This document shows positions 16,638-22,739 of a stretch of DNA of 64,000 nt, piece by piece. The position numbers were made by a program, and so were the translations under genes. The DNA is from Streptomyces carpinensis (lineage in GTDB: Bacteria; Actinomycetota; Actinomycetes; Streptomycetales; Streptomycetaceae), in contig NZ_MUBM01000205.1 in assembly GCF_002154505.1 (NCBI RefSeq), forward strand, positions 1 to 64,000. The letters are read 5' to 3'. Position 1 is the stretch's first letter, and each line of letters begins with the position of its first letter. The notes beneath the pieces were generated by a model, which saw only the letters and a list, made by a program, of their open reading frames with translations, ran no database searches and had not been told where the DNA came from.

Positions 16638-17318
16638 TCAGACGCGGGTCGCCCACACGTAACGGTGTTCCGGGCGGCCCGCGTCGCCGTACTTCAGGGT
16701 CAGCCTGGCCCGCCCCGTGCGCTCCAGCAGCTTGAGGTAGCGCTGGGCGGTCTGCCGGCTCACCCCGGTCCGGTCGGCGATCTCCTGGGCCGACAGGGGG
16801 CCCTCGGCCGTCATCAGCGACTGGCGGACGAGTTCGGCGGTGGTGGGGGAGTGCCCCTTGGGCAGCCCGGGATCGGCCGGGGCGGACAGGGCCCCGAAGA
16901 TCCGGTCCACCTCGGCCTGTTCCGCCTCGCCACCGCCGTCCAGCGTGCGGCGCAGCTCCGCATAGGCCTCCAGCTTGACCCGCAGGCCCGCGAAGCCGAA
17001 CGGCTTGACCAGGTACTGCAGCGCCCCGTGCCGCATCGCGGCCTGGACGGTCGCCACGTCCCGCGCCGCCGTCACCATGATCACGTCGGTCTGGTGGCCG
17101 CGCCGACGCATCTCCCGCACGACCGTCAGACCCGTCTCGTCGGGCAGGTAGTGGTCCATGAGGACCAGGTCCAGGCGCGGCAGCGTCTCCAGCCGGCGCA
17201 GCGCCTCGGCTGCGGTGTGCGCCTCGCCCGCGACGTGGAAGCCCGGCACCTTCTCGACATAGGCCGCGTTGACCCGGGCCACCCGGGCGTCGTCGTCCAC
17301 GACCAGGACCTCGATCAT
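16638..17318 (-). CDS. CitB/DcuR-type response regulator, copy 2
   Basis: 226 residues from the ATG at 17318 (MIEVLVVDDD). The receiver has phospho-acceptor Asp55 (LVLMDHYLP) and Lys in LVKPF; the C-terminal HTH is SAQEIADRTGVSRQTAQRYL. The start overlaps the sensor-kinase stop by four bases (ATGA), so this copy is the coupled partner of that kinase. It is a clear paralogue of the regulator at 12922-13614 and has the same orientation; the two bracket the ABC importer. Confidence 0.92.
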   Translation of the reverse strand: MIEVLVVDDDARVARVNAAYVEKVPGFHVAGEAHTAAEALRRLETLPRLDLVLMDHYLPDETGLTVVREMRRRGHQTDVIMVTAARDVATVQAAMRHGALQYLVKPFGFAGLRVKLEAYAELRRTLDGGGEAEQAEVDRIFGALSAPADPGLPKGHSPTTAELVRQSLMTAEGPLSAQEIADRTGVSRQTAQRYLKLLERTGRARLTLKYGDAGRPEHRYVWATRV

Positions 17319-19057
17319 CGCGACTCCTCCTCGGACGTCTCGAGGGCGGCGGTGAGAGAGGGCTGCAGCTCCGCGGATTCCAGGTCCGTGGTTCCCGGGT
17401 CCGCGGTTCCCGGGTCCGCCGGCGTGGGGTCCGCGGACGCGAGGTCCGGCTCGGCCAGCGCCTCGGGCAGCACGACGGTGAACTCCGCGCCGCCGCCGGG
17501 CGCCTCGCCCACCGTCGCCCGGCCTCCCTGCCGCTCGGCGAGCCTGCGCACCAGGGAGAGACCGATGCCGCGCTTGCCGTGTGCCGGCGGCTGCTTGGTG
17601 GACCACCCTTCCGTGAAGATCAGGTCCCGTTGGTCCGCCGGGATCCCCGGCCCCGTGTCGCGCACCCTGAGGACGGCGGTGCGTCCCTCGGCGCGCAGTT
17701 CGACCTCCACGCGCGCGTGCGGGGTCGCCGCCACCGCGTCGAGCGCGTTGTCGACCAGGTTGCCGACGACCGTCACCAGGCCCCGGGGATCGACCAGCCG
17801 GTCCGGCAGCCGGGTCCGGTCCGAGACCCACAGTGCGACCCCGCGCTCGGCCGCGACGGTCGCCTTGCCGACCAGCAGGGCGGCGATCAGCGGGTCCTGG
17901 ATCTTCTCGGTGACCTGTTCCGCGGTGGCTCGGTGGTCGCCGACGACCTCCCCGACGAACTCCACCGCGTCGTCGTACATCTCCAGCTCCAGCAGCCCGA
18001 GCAGCGTGTGCATGCGATTGGCGTGCTCGTGGTCCTGCGCGCGCAGCGCGTCGATCAGTCCGCGGGTGGAGTCCAGTTCCCGGCCCAACTGCTCCAGCTC
18101 GGTGCGGTCGCGCAGGGTGGCGACGGCGCCTCCGTCGTCGGTGGGCATGCGGTTGGCGACCAGGACGCGCTGCCCGCGCACGGTGAGCAGATCCGTGCCC
18201 GTCACCCGCCCGGCCAGCACGTCGGTCGTACGGCCCTCGCCGAGCGCCTCGTCGAGCGACCGGCCGACCGCCTCGTCACCGATGCCGAGCAGGCGCCGGG
18301 CCTCGTCGTTGAGCAGCCGGACACGGCCGTGGCGGTCGAGGGCCACGACGCCCTCCCGGATGCCGTGCAGCATCGCCTCCCGCTCGGCGAGCAGGGCCGC
18401 GATGTCCGAGAAGGCCAGGTCCCTCGTCTGCCGCTGGACCCGCCGGGAGATCAGCCAGGCGGCCAGCGCGCCGACCGCGAGGGCGCCACCGGCGTACGCG
18501 AGCAGCCCCGGTATGGCATCGATCAGTTTGGCGCGGACGCTGTCGTAGGCGATGCCCACCGAGACCGCGCCGATGATGCGGTGGTCGTCGTCGTACAGCG
18601 GCACCTTGCCCCGGGCCGAGCGGCCCAGGGTGCCGGTGTCGATCTGCATGACCTTCCTGCCCGCCAGTGCGGGAGTGGGGTCCGTCGAGACGGTCCGCCC
18701 GATCTGCTTCGGATCGGTGTGCGACCAGCGCACGCCCCGCACGTCCATCACCACGACGTACTCGGCGGAGGTCTCCTTGCGGATCCGCTCCGCCTCCTTC
18801 TGCACGGGGCCGCCGACGGTCGGCGCGGAGTTCTGCAGGTCGTGCGCGACCTGAGGGTTCTGTGCGGTGGTCTCGGCGATGGCGAGCGCGCGGCGCATCG
18901 CCTGGTCGTCCAGCTGATGGCTGAGCGGCGCGAGGAACAGCCCGGTCGCCAGGACCGCCACTCCAGCGGCGATCGCCAACTGCATCAGCAGCACCTGCGA
19001 GAACACCCGCCGTGGCAGGCCGAGGCGCAGGCGGCGCGCGGGGGGAGTGGGGCTCAT
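17315..19057 (-). CDS. DcuS/CitA-family sensor histidine kinase
   Basis: 580 residues from the ATG at 19057. An upstream in-frame ATG adds 18 residues, and neither start has a strong ribosome-binding site. There is a transmembrane helix at ~22-44, an extracytoplasmic PASp/sCache-like domain (~45-180, with YVVVMDVRGVRWSHTDP), a second helix at ~185-205, a cytoplasmic PAS domain (~220-325), and a DcuS-type phosphorylation box RAQDHEHANRMHTLLGL. The ATPase domain has N-box NLVDNALDAV and DTGPGIP. The C-terminal ~40 residues are a low-complexity Asp/Pro/Thr/Gly tail with DPGTADPGTTD repeats. It should sense a carboxylate and phosphorylate the coupled regulator. Confidence 0.9.
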   Translation of the reverse strand: MSPTPPARRLRLGLPRRVFSQVLLMQLAIAAGVAVLATGLFLAPLSHQLDDQAMRRALAIAETTAQNPQVAHDLQNSAPTVGGPVQKEAERIRKETSAEYVVVMDVRGVRWSHTDPKQIGRTVSTDPTPALAGRKVMQIDTGTLGRSARGKVPLYDDDHRIIGAVSVGIAYDSVRAKLIDAIPGLLAYAGGALAVGALAAWLISRRVQRQTRDLAFSDIAALLAEREAMLHGIREGVVALDRHGRVRLLNDEARRLLGIGDEAVGRSLDEALGEGRTTDVLAGRVTGTDLLTVRGQRVLVANRMPTDDGGAVATLRDRTELEQLGRELDSTRGLIDALRAQDHEHANRMHTLLGLLELEMYDDAVEFVGEVVGDHRATAEQVTEKIQDPLIAALLVGKATVAAERGVALWVSDRTRLPDRLVDPRGLVTVVGNLVDNALDAVAATPHARVEVELRAEGRTAVLRVRDTGPGIPADQRDLIFTEGWSTKQPPAHGKRGIGLSLVRRLAERQGGRATVGEAPGGGAEFTVVLPEALAEPDLASADPTPADPGTADPGTTDLESAELQPSLTAALETSEEESR

Positions 19058-19193
19058 GCCCACGACCGTACGTCGGCGGGCGGTGACTGCCCCAGGGGGG
19101 TGTGGCATGGATCTCGTGGCCGGATCCCGGGTGCCCGGCAGCCCGAGCGGCCGGGTCCCGTTCCAGGGGACGCGCGCGGTCACATGCCCCGCC

Positions 19194-20210: not shown

Positions 20211-21464
20211 CTACTCCGGCAGTGGCTGCGGAGGCCGTGGACCGACGTACCGGCCACTCGGGCGCATGCGCAGCGGGCGCTCCCCGTACTCCTCCAGGGC
20301 GTGGGCGATCCAGCCCGCCGTCCTGGCCACGGCGAAGATCGTCTCGCTCGCGCTGGAGGGCATGCCGGAGGAGGCGGTGAACACGGCCAGGGCCAGGTCG
20401 ACGTTGGCGTGCAGCGGAGTGTGACGGGCGGTCGTGGCGACGATGTCGCGGGCGGCGGCGAGGGCCGGGGCGGCCCGCGGGATGTCCTCCAGGAGGGCGA
20501 AGAGGGCACGCGCGCGTGGATCCTCGCCCGGGTAGAGGCGGTGGCCGAGTCCGGGGATGCGGCGGCCTTCGCGCAGCTCGTCGGCGATGACGGGCCCGGC
20601 GGAGCCCCGGTCCAGCACCTCGAGGATGAGCCGGTGGGCCAGTCCGCCGGCCGCGCCGTGCAGCGGGCCCTCGAGCACGCCGAGCCCCGCGGAGACGGCG
20701 GCGTAGGCGTGCGCGCGGGCGGAGGCGGCCACGCGCACGGCGAGCGTCGAGGCGGCCAGGTCGTGGTCGACGAGCAGGCCCAGCGCGGTGTCCAGCACGC
20801 GCAGTGAGGCGTCGTCGGCGGGGCGACCGGTCAGCCGTGCCCAGAGCCGGTGGGCGAGCGGGCCCTGGTCGCGGTGGTCGTGCCGGACCGGCGGCAGCGC
20901 GGTGACGAGGGTCGGGATGAGCACGCGCGCGGTGCCGAGCACGGCGTCCTCCGACAGGTCGAACCGCAGCGGGTCCGCCGCGGCGGCCGCGATCGCGGCG
21001 ACCCGCAGCCGGTCGGTGGGCCCCGTGTGCTCGGGCAGGGCGTCCACGGCGCGGCGGGCCACGGCGACGGAGGCGTCGGGCGCGGTGAAGGTGACTCCGG
21101 GGCGCAGCCGCCCGGTCCAGAGCCACTCGGCGATCTCCTCGTAGGTGTGCCGGGCGGCCAGCTCCGCGGCGTCCACGCCGCGGAAGTAGTAGCGGTCCTT
21201 GTCGATGAGGGTGATCCGGGTCCGCACGGACAGCTCCCCGCTGAAGTCCGCGGCGCTTGCGTCCCTCCGCTTGCGGCGGGCGAGCGCCTCGACCTCCTTG
21301 GCGTCGAAGGAGCTGCCCCGGCCGCCCGGACCGCGGCGGCTGCTGAGCTGACCGCGGCTCACGTACGCGTACACGGTCTCGGGCTTCACCCCGAGCAGCT
21401 CGGCGGTCTCCTTGGTGGTCAGCCGCCGCTCCGCGGCGTCGACGGCGGGTTGCTGATCGCGCAT
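20211..21464 (-). CDS. Citrate synthase-like protein with N-terminal HTH
   Basis: 417 residues from the ATG at 21464 (GGTGAG upstream). Residues ~14-45 form a MerR/excisionase-type helix-turn-helix (LTTKETAELLGVKPETVYAY). The citrate synthase fold follows, with RYYFRGVDAAELA, GPLHGAAGGLAHR, GLGHRLYPGEDPRA and LHANVDLAL. Both active-site His positions and the catalytic-type Asp (NVD) are kept. Substrate could be oxaloacetate or another 2-oxoacid. It is divergent from a second citrate synthase gene across 108 bases holding two palindromes, which suggests the HTH may bind there. DNA binding is inference. Confidence 0.88.
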   Translation of the reverse strand: MRDQQPAVDAAERRLTTKETAELLGVKPETVYAYVSRGQLSSRRGPGGRGSSFDAKEVEALARRKRRDASAADFSGELSVRTRITLIDKDRYYFRGVDAAELAARHTYEEIAEWLWTGRLRPGVTFTAPDASVAVARRAVDALPEHTGPTDRLRVAAIAAAAADPLRFDLSEDAVLGTARVLIPTLVTALPPVRHDHRDQGPLAHRLWARLTGRPADDASLRVLDTALGLLVDHDLAASTLAVRVAASARAHAYAAVSAGLGVLEGPLHGAAGGLAHRLILEVLDRGSAGPVIADELREGRRIPGLGHRLYPGEDPRARALFALLEDIPRAAPALAAARDIVATTARHTPLHANVDLALAVFTASSGMPSSASETIFAVARTAGWIAHALEEYGERPLRMRPSGRYVGPRPPQPLPE

Positions 21465-21501
21465 GGAGCTCACCGTATCCGCCTCCGGCCCTTGTGCAAG
21501 C

Positions 21502-21536
21502 ATTGATTCAATCAATATTGACAGCTACTCAGTCAA
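21502..21536. promoter_or_regulatory. Two palindromes between divergent citrate synthase genes
   Basis: ATTGATTCAATCAAT (21502-21516) is a perfect palindrome with 7-base arms. TTGAC-N9-GTCAA (21518-21536) is a second inverted repeat two bases away, and its TTGAC could also serve as a -35 element. This is the most AT-rich stretch nearby. It is probably a shared operator for both genes. Confidence 0.65.
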
Positions 21537-21572
21537 CGCTGGACAGTGCAGATCAAGTCCATGGGAGGAAAC

Positions 21573-22739
21573 ATGTCCAGCAACAGGGCCGCAGCAACTC
21601 TTGTCGACGCGCCGCGGGGACTCGCGGGAGTCGTGGTCACCGACACCCGAATCGGTGACGTCCGCGGGCTCGAGGGCTTCTACCACTACCGCCAGTACTC
21701 GGCCGTCGAACTGGCCCGGACCCGCAGCTTCGAGGACGTCTGGCATCTTTTGGTCCACGGCGGGCTGCCGGACGCCGAACGCGGTGCCGCCTTCGCCGCG
21801 GAGACGGCCGCGCTGCGCAGGCTGCCCGACGAGGTGCGGTCGGCCCTGCCCGCGATCGCGGCGGCGGGCCGGCGTTCCGGCCCGCTGGCCGGCATGCGCA
21901 CCGCGCTGTCCCTGCTGGGCGCGGCGAAGGACTTCCGCCCGGTCTACGACATCGACGCCGACCGTCGCCGCCAGGACACCCTCGTCGCCTGTGCGGCCGT
22001 GCCGACACTGCTCACCGCGCTGCACCGGCTGGCCAAGGGGCTCGCCCCCGTGGAGCCGCGCGAGGACCTCTCGTACGCGGCGAACTACCTCTACATGCTG
22101 ACGGGTTCCGAGCCGGATCCACGGCGGGCGCGGGCGATCGAGCAGTACTTGATCTCAACCATTGACCACGGGTTCAATGCGTCAACCTTCACGGCACGGG
22201 TCATCGCGTCGACCGGGGCGGACGTGGCCGCCTGCCTCGTGGGAGCGGTGGGGGCGCTGTCGGGGCCCCTGCACGGAGGCGCGCCCAGCAGGGCGCTGGA
22301 CACACTGGACGCGATCGGCACCCCTGATCGGATCGACTCCTGGATCTGTGCCCGCGTCCTCGCCGGAGACCGCATCATGGGCTTCGGCCACGCCGTCTAC
22401 CGCACCGAGGATCCGCGCTCCCGCATGCTGCGTGAGATCGCCCAGGGATTCGGCGGGCCGCGGGTCGAATTCGCCGTCGAGGTCGAACGCCGTGTCGAGG
22501 CGATTCTCGCGGAGCTGAAGCCCGGCCGTGAACTCCACGCCAACGTCGAGTTCTACGCGGGCGTCGTCATGGAGCTGTGCGGCCTGCCCCGCGAGATGTT
22601 CACCCCGACCTTCGCCGCGGGGCGGGTGGTGGGCTGGAGCGCGAACGTCCTGGAGCAGGCGGAGGACTCGAAGATCATCAGGCCGGCGGCGAGGTACGTC
22701 GGGCCGGTGCCGCCCGTGAAGGTGCCGGAGGCGGCCTGA
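21573..22739 (+). CDS. Citrate synthase (second, without HTH)
   Basis: 388 residues from the ATG at 21573, with GGGAGG at 21563-21568. Conserved features are VTDTRIGDVRGLEGFYHYRQYSA-type N-terminal residues, GPLHGGAPSRA (His234), GFGHAVYRTEDPR (His273) and LHANVEFYAG. At the position of the usual catalytic Asp the sequence has Glu326 (NVEFY). It should condense acetyl-CoA with oxaloacetate, or propionyl-CoA if it is a methylcitrate synthase. An 11-base-stem hairpin follows. It probably shares control with the divergent paralogue. Confidence 0.9.
   Translation: MSSNRAAATLVDAPRGLAGVVVTDTRIGDVRGLEGFYHYRQYSAVELARTRSFEDVWHLLVHGGLPDAERGAAFAAETAALRRLPDEVRSALPAIAAAGRRSGPLAGMRTALSLLGAAKDFRPVYDIDADRRRQDTLVACAAVPTLLTALHRLAKGLAPVEPREDLSYAANYLYMLTGSEPDPRRARAIEQYLISTIDHGFNASTFTARVIASTGADVAACLVGAVGALSGPLHGGAPSRALDTLDAIGTPDRIDSWICARVLAGDRIMGFGHAVYRTEDPRSRMLREIAQGFGGPRVEFAVEVERRVEAILAELKPGRELHANVEFYAGVVMELCGLPREMFTPTFAAGRVVGWSANVLEQAEDSKIIRPAARYVGPVPPVKVPEAA
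22161..22178. promoter_or_regulatory. Intragenic operator-like palindrome in citrate synthase gene
   Basis: ATTGACCACGGGTTCAAT is self-complementary at 14 of 18 positions and starts and ends like the palindrome at 21502-21516. It sits in a run of codons unusual for this genome (TTG, TCA, ATT, AAT, TCA between 22149 and 22185), as if the DNA sequence itself were constrained. Confidence 0.35.

Follow-up and report, generated by a model that had tools for sequence, protein, structure and literature searches.

The subject of this work is a divergent pair of citrate synthase genes in Streptomyces carpinensis, found in a window of 64,000 nucleotides (the whole stretch that was analysed, i.e. positions 1 to 64,000 of contig NZ_MUBM01000205.1). 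One of the two, here termed HTH-CS, encodes a citrate synthase homologue with an N-terminal helix-turn-helix (HTH) domain, the other, termed the partner, a citrate synthase without it. Taken as a whole, the data are best explained if HTH-CS is a one-component regulator of the partner and of an unlinked family III coenzyme A (CoA)-transferase gene, acting by repression that a ligand relieves, and we regard this reading as likely. Four of its elements come directly from sequence comparison: the fusion, the operator, the co-occurrence of operator and HTH-CS, and the link to the CoA-transferase.

The citrate synthase pair

The sequence-only reading of this DNA had described the minus-strand protein as a citrate synthase that carries an HTH at its N-terminus and keeps both active-site histidines and the aspartate, and had noted two palindromes in the 108 bp spacer (21465-21572) facing a second citrate synthase. 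All of these features were found (Table 1). The HTH_17 profile (PF12728) scores 34.1 bits against a cut-off of 27, and Citrate_synt (PF00285) 209 bits against a cut-off of 27, i.e. HTH-CS matches the superfamily profile, but it stays below the cut-offs of the NCBIfam synthase subfamilies and equivalogs (best NF009005, 159.8 versus 332 bits). The partner passes NF009005 (347 versus 332 bits), has as its best PDB match 2c6x, the B. subtilis citrate synthase, and its ATG is preceded by GGGAGGA. A profile search found 5 Citrate_synt matches in the genome.

The DNA-binding domain shares its fold, and weak family scores, with the BldC/MerR/excisionase winged HTHs. PF13411 is just reached (21.7 against a gathering score of 21.6), PF00376 just missed (27.8 against 28.2), and HTH_BldC of NCBIfam gives 27.6 against a cut-off of 77, which places the protein outside the BldC family. 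Unlike MerR proteins, HTH-CS is predicted to lack the long dimerisation helix: in the model a single helix (55-70) comes after the HTH and leads through a low-confidence linker to the citrate synthase domain. The alignment comprises 133 HTH-CS rows, namely a set of 126 (94 of them Streptomyces) and 7 others, besides 122 HTH-less rows (partner orthologues except L001, L003 and L140). The recognition segment G[VI]xxxT[VLI]Y[AST]Y[VA]SRG is present in 132 of the 133. AlphaFold2, run on HTH-CS with 38 Streptomyces sequences, gave a mean pLDDT (predicted local distance difference test) of 75 and a pTM (predicted template modelling score) of 0.70. The 50 Foldseek matches listed are all citrate or methylcitrate synthases and therefore offer no structural view of where the HTH lies in the dimer; among the PDB matches (60 distinct sequences) none spans the HTH.

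The list of open reading frames begins HTH-CS at a TTG at 21515. This start was rejected, as the frame would cross the palindromes and the orthologues conserve the ATG at 21464-21462, together with the TACGGT ahead of it.

Table 1. Features of the divergent citrate synthase locus (window coordinates)
Feature	Position	Strand	Basis or remark
HTH-citrate synthase fusion (HTH-CS), SCO5831-like, 417 aa	20211..21464	-	PF12728 + PF00285
Winged HTH (MerR/excisionase/BldC type), residues 15-65	21270..21422	-	PF12728; recognition segment GVKPETVYAYVSRG
Citrate synthase domain, residues 75-402	20259..21242	-	PF00285
R401	20262-20264	-	alignment
D356, catalytic Asp	20397..20399	-	alignment
R317	20514-20516	-	alignment
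H308	20541-20543	-	alignment
H269	20658-20660	-	alignment
A237, replacing the active-site Asn of citrate synthases	20754..20756	-	alignment
H234	20763-20765	-	alignment
Putative HTH-CS -10, TACGGT	21472..21477	-	7 nt ahead of ATG; leaderless promoter
Palindrome 1, TTGATTCAATCAA	21503..21515		wider form ATTGATTCAATCAAT at 21502-21516
Everted half-sites, ATCAATATTGAC (RTCAAnnTTGAY, other strand)	21511..21522		spacing fixed in most lineages
Palindrome 2, TTGAC-N9-GTCAA	21518..21536		overlaps putative partner -35
Putative partner promoter, TTGACA-N18-GACAGT	21518..21547	+	sequence and Streptomyces conservation
Block matching predicted S. coelicolor MtrA site, TTGACTTAACTGTCCA	21540..21556		PMC12323332 Table 1 against spacer consensus, by eye
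Partner citrate synthase, SCO5832-like, 388 aa	21573..22739	+	PF00285, 370 bits
Region of partner insertion in two other Streptomyces (G101, G208)	21679-21700		core CCGCCAGTA at 21689-21697; L152, L155, L216-L219

Conservation of the palindromes

A regulatory role is indicated by the operator, which follows the HTH-CS gene, as would be expected of a one-component regulator derived from an enzyme. Among 80 loci with close orthologues (79 titled Streptomyces and one 'Actinobacteria bacterium OV320'), TTGAY-N3-RTCAA is found in 78 (exceptions L017 and L082) and TTGAY-N9-RTCAA in 74 (exceptions L008, L024, L041, L079, L083 and L084, of which L083 and L084 have N8 in place of N9), and wherever both palindromes are present they are 21 bp apart. 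The composite pattern TGTYAAnnTTGAYnnnRTCRA was matched in 77 of the 79 loci examined. By column count, TGTCAATATTGATTGAATCAAT is the best-conserved stretch of the spacer, with up to 2.0 bits per column (77 of 79 loci, i.e. the window and 78 others; L007 and L047 were omitted, the match listed for each starting away from the start codon).

Palindrome 2 begins on the putative -35 element of the partner (TTGACA, 21518-21523; the -10 GACAGT at 21542-21547 is likewise a conserved block), and palindrome 1 lies immediately upstream. The place of the palindromes on this promoter is fixed, whereas their distance to the start of HTH-CS varies from about 41 to 101 nt in Streptomyces, and for this reason the case for control of the partner is stronger than that for autorepression. 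The earlier proposal that the protein represses both genes therefore stands in part: the co-occurrence of palindromes and HTH-CS across genomes argues for regulation, but its autoregulatory half is the weaker one.

More distant homologues show the same tendency. The distant set consists of 34 loci, namely those of L105-L150 in which the HTH-CS match starts by residue 20; duplicates (L141-L143), the HTH-less L140 and loci with a missing or split N-terminal match (L121, L124, L129-L131, L135, L137, L147) were omitted. TCAAnnTTGA or TTGAYn(2-6)RTCAA occurs within 160 nt upstream of HTH-CS in 29 of the 34, against 0.16 expected from first-order resampled sequence; L118, L120, L138, L146 and L148 have no motif in this interval, and in L118 and L120 it is situated farther upstream, in long spacers. 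Outside Actinomycetota the motif is present in 15 of 19 loci (18 from Pseudomonadota and one from Deinococcus; N2-8, 240 nt, no chance control), four of which also belong to the distant set. Orthologous loci that keep the HTH have mostly kept the palindromes as well, in line with the sequence-only reading. In other actinobacterial families, in Pseudomonadota and in the one Deinococcus, most of the HTH-CS genes examined are preceded by palindrome 1 with altered spacing. The everted part, RTCAAnnTTGAY, keeps its spacing across most lineages; what varies is the gap between it and the third half-site, which measures 3 bp in Streptomyces, 4 bp in several actinobacterial families, 6 bp in Deinococcus and 7 bp in most Pseudomonadota.

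On the genome scale, HTH-CS (called at best E < 1e-100) is present in 36 of 61 Streptomyces genomes, here termed the genus sample. Exact TTGATTNAATCAA sites were found at 25 places in 24 of the 61 genomes, as opposed to 0 with the reversed control, and all of these genomes carry HTH-CS (24/36 with the gene, 0/25 without; Fisher p 2e-8). A comparison of coordinates puts 21 of the 25 sites no more than about 140 bp from HTH-CS. In the 10.4 Mb genome of S. carpinensis the site occurs once, and since both palindromes are also kept across the orthologous loci, their presence in the spacer is not due to chance.

The CoA-transferase gene

The remaining 4 exact sites (G018, G298, G310 and G327) are all located just upstream of one unlinked gene that encodes a family III CoA-transferase. 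A search for TTGAY-N3-RTCAA ahead of this gene in the genus sample was positive in 10 of the 24 genomes that have HTH-CS and in 0 of the 17 that do not; the other 20 of the 61 have no close CoA-transferase orthologue and are outside the count. A second, class-wide sample comprises 296 genomes (best E <= 1e-40 for HTH-CS and <= 1e-100 for the partner, thresholds set at visible gaps, so that more distant HTH-CS paralogues fall outside). Its Streptomyces members have the site in 5 of 10 genomes with HTH-CS and 1 of 10 without. Pooled, this makes 15/34 versus 1/27 (Fisher p 2.6e-4, among related genomes). In 11 of the 15 the site starts 30 nt ahead of the start codon. For L186 and L235 the start codon was extrapolated, which puts the site at -48 and -42, respectively, and L237 and L238 gave no firm start codon. 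In S. carpinensis itself it reads TTGATTCAGTCAA (contig 612 of the assembly).

In two Streptomyces genomes (G018 and G112) the partner orthologue is missing and HTH-CS has no palindromes next to it (L099, L095), yet HTH-CS itself is retained, and the CoA-transferase gene has a perfect TTGATTGAATCAA. Since the partner and the local palindromes have been lost, the local site is not what retains HTH-CS in these two. In a third genome (G261), where the partner is degraded, TTGATCGAATCAA is found at HTH-CS and TTGATTGCATCAA at the CoA-transferase.

The same link recurs far from Streptomyces. In Azospirillum and in Comamonas antarctica HTH-CS is divergent from a CoA-transferase gene whose product shows an identity of 43% over 388 columns and of 42% over 432 columns, respectively, to the Streptomyces protein, and GTCAATCTTGAT lies upstream of HTH-CS in both, i.e. 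RTCAAnnTTGAY is placed between the divergent genes. No site was found at nine CoA-transferase loci from other actinobacterial families (37-53% identical), in eight of which the alignment did not fix the start codon. We consider it very likely, from these sequence comparisons, that the CoA-transferase is a target of HTH-CS in the lineage, which widens the set of candidate targets beyond the earlier reading to a gene unlinked to the locus. As the operator is conserved, co-occurs with the gene, is retained without the partner and is repeatedly linked to a CoA-transferase, HTH-CS is very probably a DNA-binding regulator, and our confidence that it acts in a sequence-specific manner at precisely these sites is high.

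The degenerate pattern TTGAYNNNRTCAA matches only 5 places in the S. carpinensis genome, which is not above the reversed control (8), and a large regulon was rejected. Apart from the two sites described above, one place (L212) overlaps the start of an unrelated open reading frame, and two (L213, L215) have no clear target.

As a separate observation, one genome (G316) contains only a short HTH-CS fragment (C76:28506-28694, 71% identical, residues 281-345), and its CoA-transferase promoter site looks decayed (L172).

Active-site residues

The window protein has the catalytic H269, H308 and D356 and the substrate-binding R317 and R401, and one may ask whether HTH-CS is a trigger enzyme, i.e. a working citrate or methylcitrate synthase that also represses. 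PutA, which represses in proline use, offers an analogy. H234, H269, H308, R317, D356 and R401 correspond to H229, H264, H305, R314, D362 and R387 of the E. coli enzyme, and are kept in 126, 125, 123, 126, 125 and 125 (one gap) of the 126 HTH-CS rows. In addition, the SCO5831 protein of S. coelicolor has been detected and is more abundant at high phosphate (PMC9739823, PMC8981147).

However, the retention of catalytic residues is no demonstration of synthase activity, and there are several indications to the contrary. Firstly, the asparagine of the DHxxN motif, present in all 122 HTH-less rows, is alanine in the window protein and in 122 of the 126 HTH-CS rows, all 122 of them actinobacterial. 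The exceptions are non-actinobacterial (five such rows do not have alanine) and L145, L147 and L149, three of these five, retain the asparagine, a point in favour of the trigger enzyme; for the same reason the replacement marks the actinobacterial branch only. Secondly, the basic residue after GHxxY is retained in only 16 of the 126 rows. Thirdly, three loci of one genus (L114, L116 and L118) have A, M and I at the catalytic histidine and still retain the operator, and L148 has lost both His and Asp but kept the HTH. A His-to-Ala exchange at the corresponding position abolished the activity of Caulobacter CitA (PMC7083601). Finally, in a 38-row tree the 24 HTH-CS rows form one branch with 100/100 support, and their tips are longer than those of the partners. 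On balance a sensor fits better than a metabolic isoenzyme, at least in Actinomycetota: given the asparagine replacement and the loci that lost the histidine but kept the operator, the citrate synthase fold probably senses a ligand. A bifunctional trigger enzyme seems to us possible but doubtful.

Proposed mechanism and alternatives

In the mechanism we propose, DNA binding, dimer geometry, ligand and sign of regulation are what we infer. Citrate synthases dimerise through the citrate synthase domain. In HTH-CS the joining of a MerR-type winged HTH to this fold would produce a one-component transcription regulator, and the dimer would set its two HTHs on TTGAY/RTCAA half-sites. In Streptomyces, HTH-CS would bind both palindromes at the putative -35 of the divergent partner gene and block RNA polymerase, and in one lineage it would also bind the similar site on the promoter of the unlinked CoA-transferase gene. 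The ligand read by the fold may be an oxoacid, an acyl-CoA or both, namely oxaloacetate together with acetyl-CoA, propionyl-CoA or a related acyl-CoA. Its binding in the active-site cleft would then cause domain closure, and the HTHs would move so that the DNA is released (or engaged). We favour repression relieved by the ligand, although our preference for repression over activation is only a fairly good one.

The opposite sign would apply if HTH-CS were a MerR-type activator that acts from between the -35 and -10 elements. Its DNA-binding domain is indeed MerR-like, palindrome 2 lies between the putative -35 and -10 of the partner, and the site ahead of the CoA-transferase gene spans about -30 to -18 and so falls between the -35 and -10 expected there. 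On the other hand, the spacer of the putative partner promoter reads as 18 bp, near the normal optimum, as opposed to the long spacer of MerR promoters, and HTH-CS is without the MerR coiled coil. We think activation of this kind rather unlikely.

It is also conceivable that a different regulator (MtrA, GlnR or a further one) uses the palindromes as its operators and that HTH-CS is an ordinary isoenzyme with its HTH otherwise employed. In S. coelicolor MtrA binds a probe from the SCO5831-SCO5832 intergenic region, and both genes are more expressed at late times without MtrA (PMC12323332), i.e. the effect on both is negative. The predicted MtrA site nevertheless corresponds to a different block, which by eye overlaps the putative -10 and leader of the partner and is beside the palindromes, not on them, so that the palindromes were rejected as MtrA sites. 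Moreover, exact palindromes are confined, in the genus sample, to genomes with HTH-CS, and the motif precedes HTH-CS in other phyla, beside other neighbours. A plain isoenzyme was rejected because the operator tracks HTH-CS, and this explanation as a whole is improbable. Least probable of all is a heteromeric enzyme, in which the pairing would reflect complex formation and not regulation: 45 of the 47 class-sample genomes with the partner do have HTH-CS, but 8 of the 53 with HTH-CS have no partner orthologue, HTH-CS elsewhere adjoins a homocitrate-synthase-like gene or a CoA-transferase, operator conservation is left unexplained, and the persistence of HTH-CS without the partner led us to reject it.

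Several points weigh against a regulatory role as proposed here, beginning with the MtrA data just described. Exact 13-mers are absent from 12 of the 36 Streptomyces genomes with HTH-CS (the count covers the exact form, not variants), and the CoA-transferase site from 19 of 34, while G057, a Streptomyces without HTH-CS, still carries that site. The degenerate pattern is not enriched in the S. carpinensis genome. No site was seen at L138 (160-nt search) or at the non-actinobacterial loci L148, L229, L230 and L233 (N2-8, 240 nt). The lineage-dependent spacing of the half-sites (3, 4, 6 or 7 bp) is hard to reconcile with a rigid dimer, and the genomes are related, hence the Fisher tests overstate their independence. 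On the whole the sequence comparison has strengthened the regulatory interpretation and widened it to a target in trans.

Neighbouring genes and distribution

The class sample divides into 45 genomes with both genes, 8 with HTH-CS only, 2 with the partner only and 241 with neither (Fisher p 2e-42, kinship uncorrected). In both partner-only genomes (G015, G251) the locus lies at the end of a contig, and in G251 the beginning of an HTH-CS gene is present (L144); the eight with HTH-CS only include one contig end (G131) and the degraded partner of G261.

In other lineages HTH-CS has other neighbours. The divergent gene is homocitrate-synthase/isopropylmalate-synthase-like in L126 and L132 (best NCBIfam nifV_homocitr, below cut-off) and HMGL-like in Deinococcus, and the neighbour is again a citrate synthase in Agrobacterium and Chelatococcus. 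Other neighbours in Pseudomonadota are a DUF2332 protein, a 2-hydroxyacid dehydrogenase, a VOC protein (same direction) and a ring-hydroxylating dioxygenase; the plasmid records L146, L150, L225, L227, L228, L229 and L232 have no annotation from which a neighbour could be named. Repeatedly, then, HTH-CS adjoins either a CoA-transferase or an enzyme that condenses an acyl-CoA with a 2-oxoacid. We speculate, with less than even confidence, that HTH-CS represents a regulator family in Actinomycetota, Pseudomonadota and Deinococcota, acting as a decoy that senses the acyl-CoA and the 2-oxoacid used by the enzymes under its control, in which one ancestral fusion, the recognition helix and the TTGAY half-site would have persisted while the target was swapped. 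The controlled enzymes would be a citrate synthase, a homocitrate-synthase-like HMGL enzyme and a CoA-transferase, and the actinobacterial fold would probably be slowed or dead as a catalyst.

A few further observations concern the variability of the pair. One Streptomyces has a second, distant HTH-CS (L170, G298:C22:24000-31000; 33% identical) near another citrate synthase in the same orientation, and no operator-like match was found beside it. In L129, L130 and L131, from genomes of family f19, HTH-CS is lengthened in frame by some 65-145 residues, inserted near residue 200. In the Streptomyces genomes G101 and G208 the partner gene is interrupted after about 38-41 codons by more than 100 kb of inserted DNA whose left junction has the same sequence in both, as would be seen if the gene served an integrative element as attachment site; the insert of G208 contains a full partner-like copy (81% identical). 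No PF00239 recombinases were found on the contigs holding the insert, in a search that did not include tyrosine integrases.

At the locus in the window the gene order is two-component system, Suc_Fer-like gene, HTH-CS. The two-component system, at 16638-19183, consists of a sensor kinase of the CitA/DcuS type (sCache_3_2, SPOB_a) and a response regulator resembling DcuR/DpiA, downstream of HTH-CS past the Suc_Fer-like gene, which suggests a carboxylate-sensing system beside the citrate synthase pair.

Comparison with known systems

The pair has its counterpart in S. coelicolor, where SCO5831/SCO5832 (citA3/citA4) have the same neighbours, i.e. a Suc_Fer-like gene and a two-component system, and the order of SCO5828-SCO5831 agrees with that in the window (PMC9739823). 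SCO5831 is named citrate synthase-like in PMC9739823, PMC8981147 and PMC7324645, the last of which has it in a transcript table, and PMC12323332 treats both proteins as putative citrate synthases; its searched text does not contain 'helix-turn-helix' or 'DNA-binding domain'. In Caulobacter, with its CitA, CitB and CitC, a citrate synthase has a regulatory role independent of its activity; citB and citC have the consecutive tags CCNA_03757/CCNA_03758, and only CitB complements E. coli gltA, CitC having failed (PMC7083601). The consulted text of that paper has 0 occurrences of 'hth' or 'helix-turn-helix', and CitC may be an HTH-CS. In the open-licence PMC literature (which leaves subscription papers and preprints outside) we found no account of a DNA-binding citrate synthase of the HTH-CS kind.

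It is instructive to compare HTH-CS with regulators of other origin. PutA, BirA and NadR are enzyme-derived regulators, and ROK repressors (sugar kinase) and MocR proteins (aminotransferase) are fold fusions. Like these, HTH-CS combines an HTH with the fold of a metabolic enzyme as an actual or possible ligand sensor, the fold here being that of citrate synthase. The citR-citA locus of B. subtilis has a similar divergent layout, with a regulator gene opposite a minor citrate synthase; CitR, however, is a LysR protein, whereas in the window the regulator would itself be a citrate synthase homologue.

If the proposed mechanism is correct, the citrate synthase fold would gain a role as the sensor of a transcription factor, and the retention of an odd extra citrate synthase pair by Streptomyces would be explained. 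It would also supply a ready operator and regulon, consisting of the partner citrate synthase and the CoA-transferase, in S. coelicolor and its relatives. Should the ligand be an oxoacid or an acyl-CoA, entry into the tricarboxylic acid cycle would be tied to gene control in antibiotic producers, and HTH-CS might serve as a metabolite biosensor.

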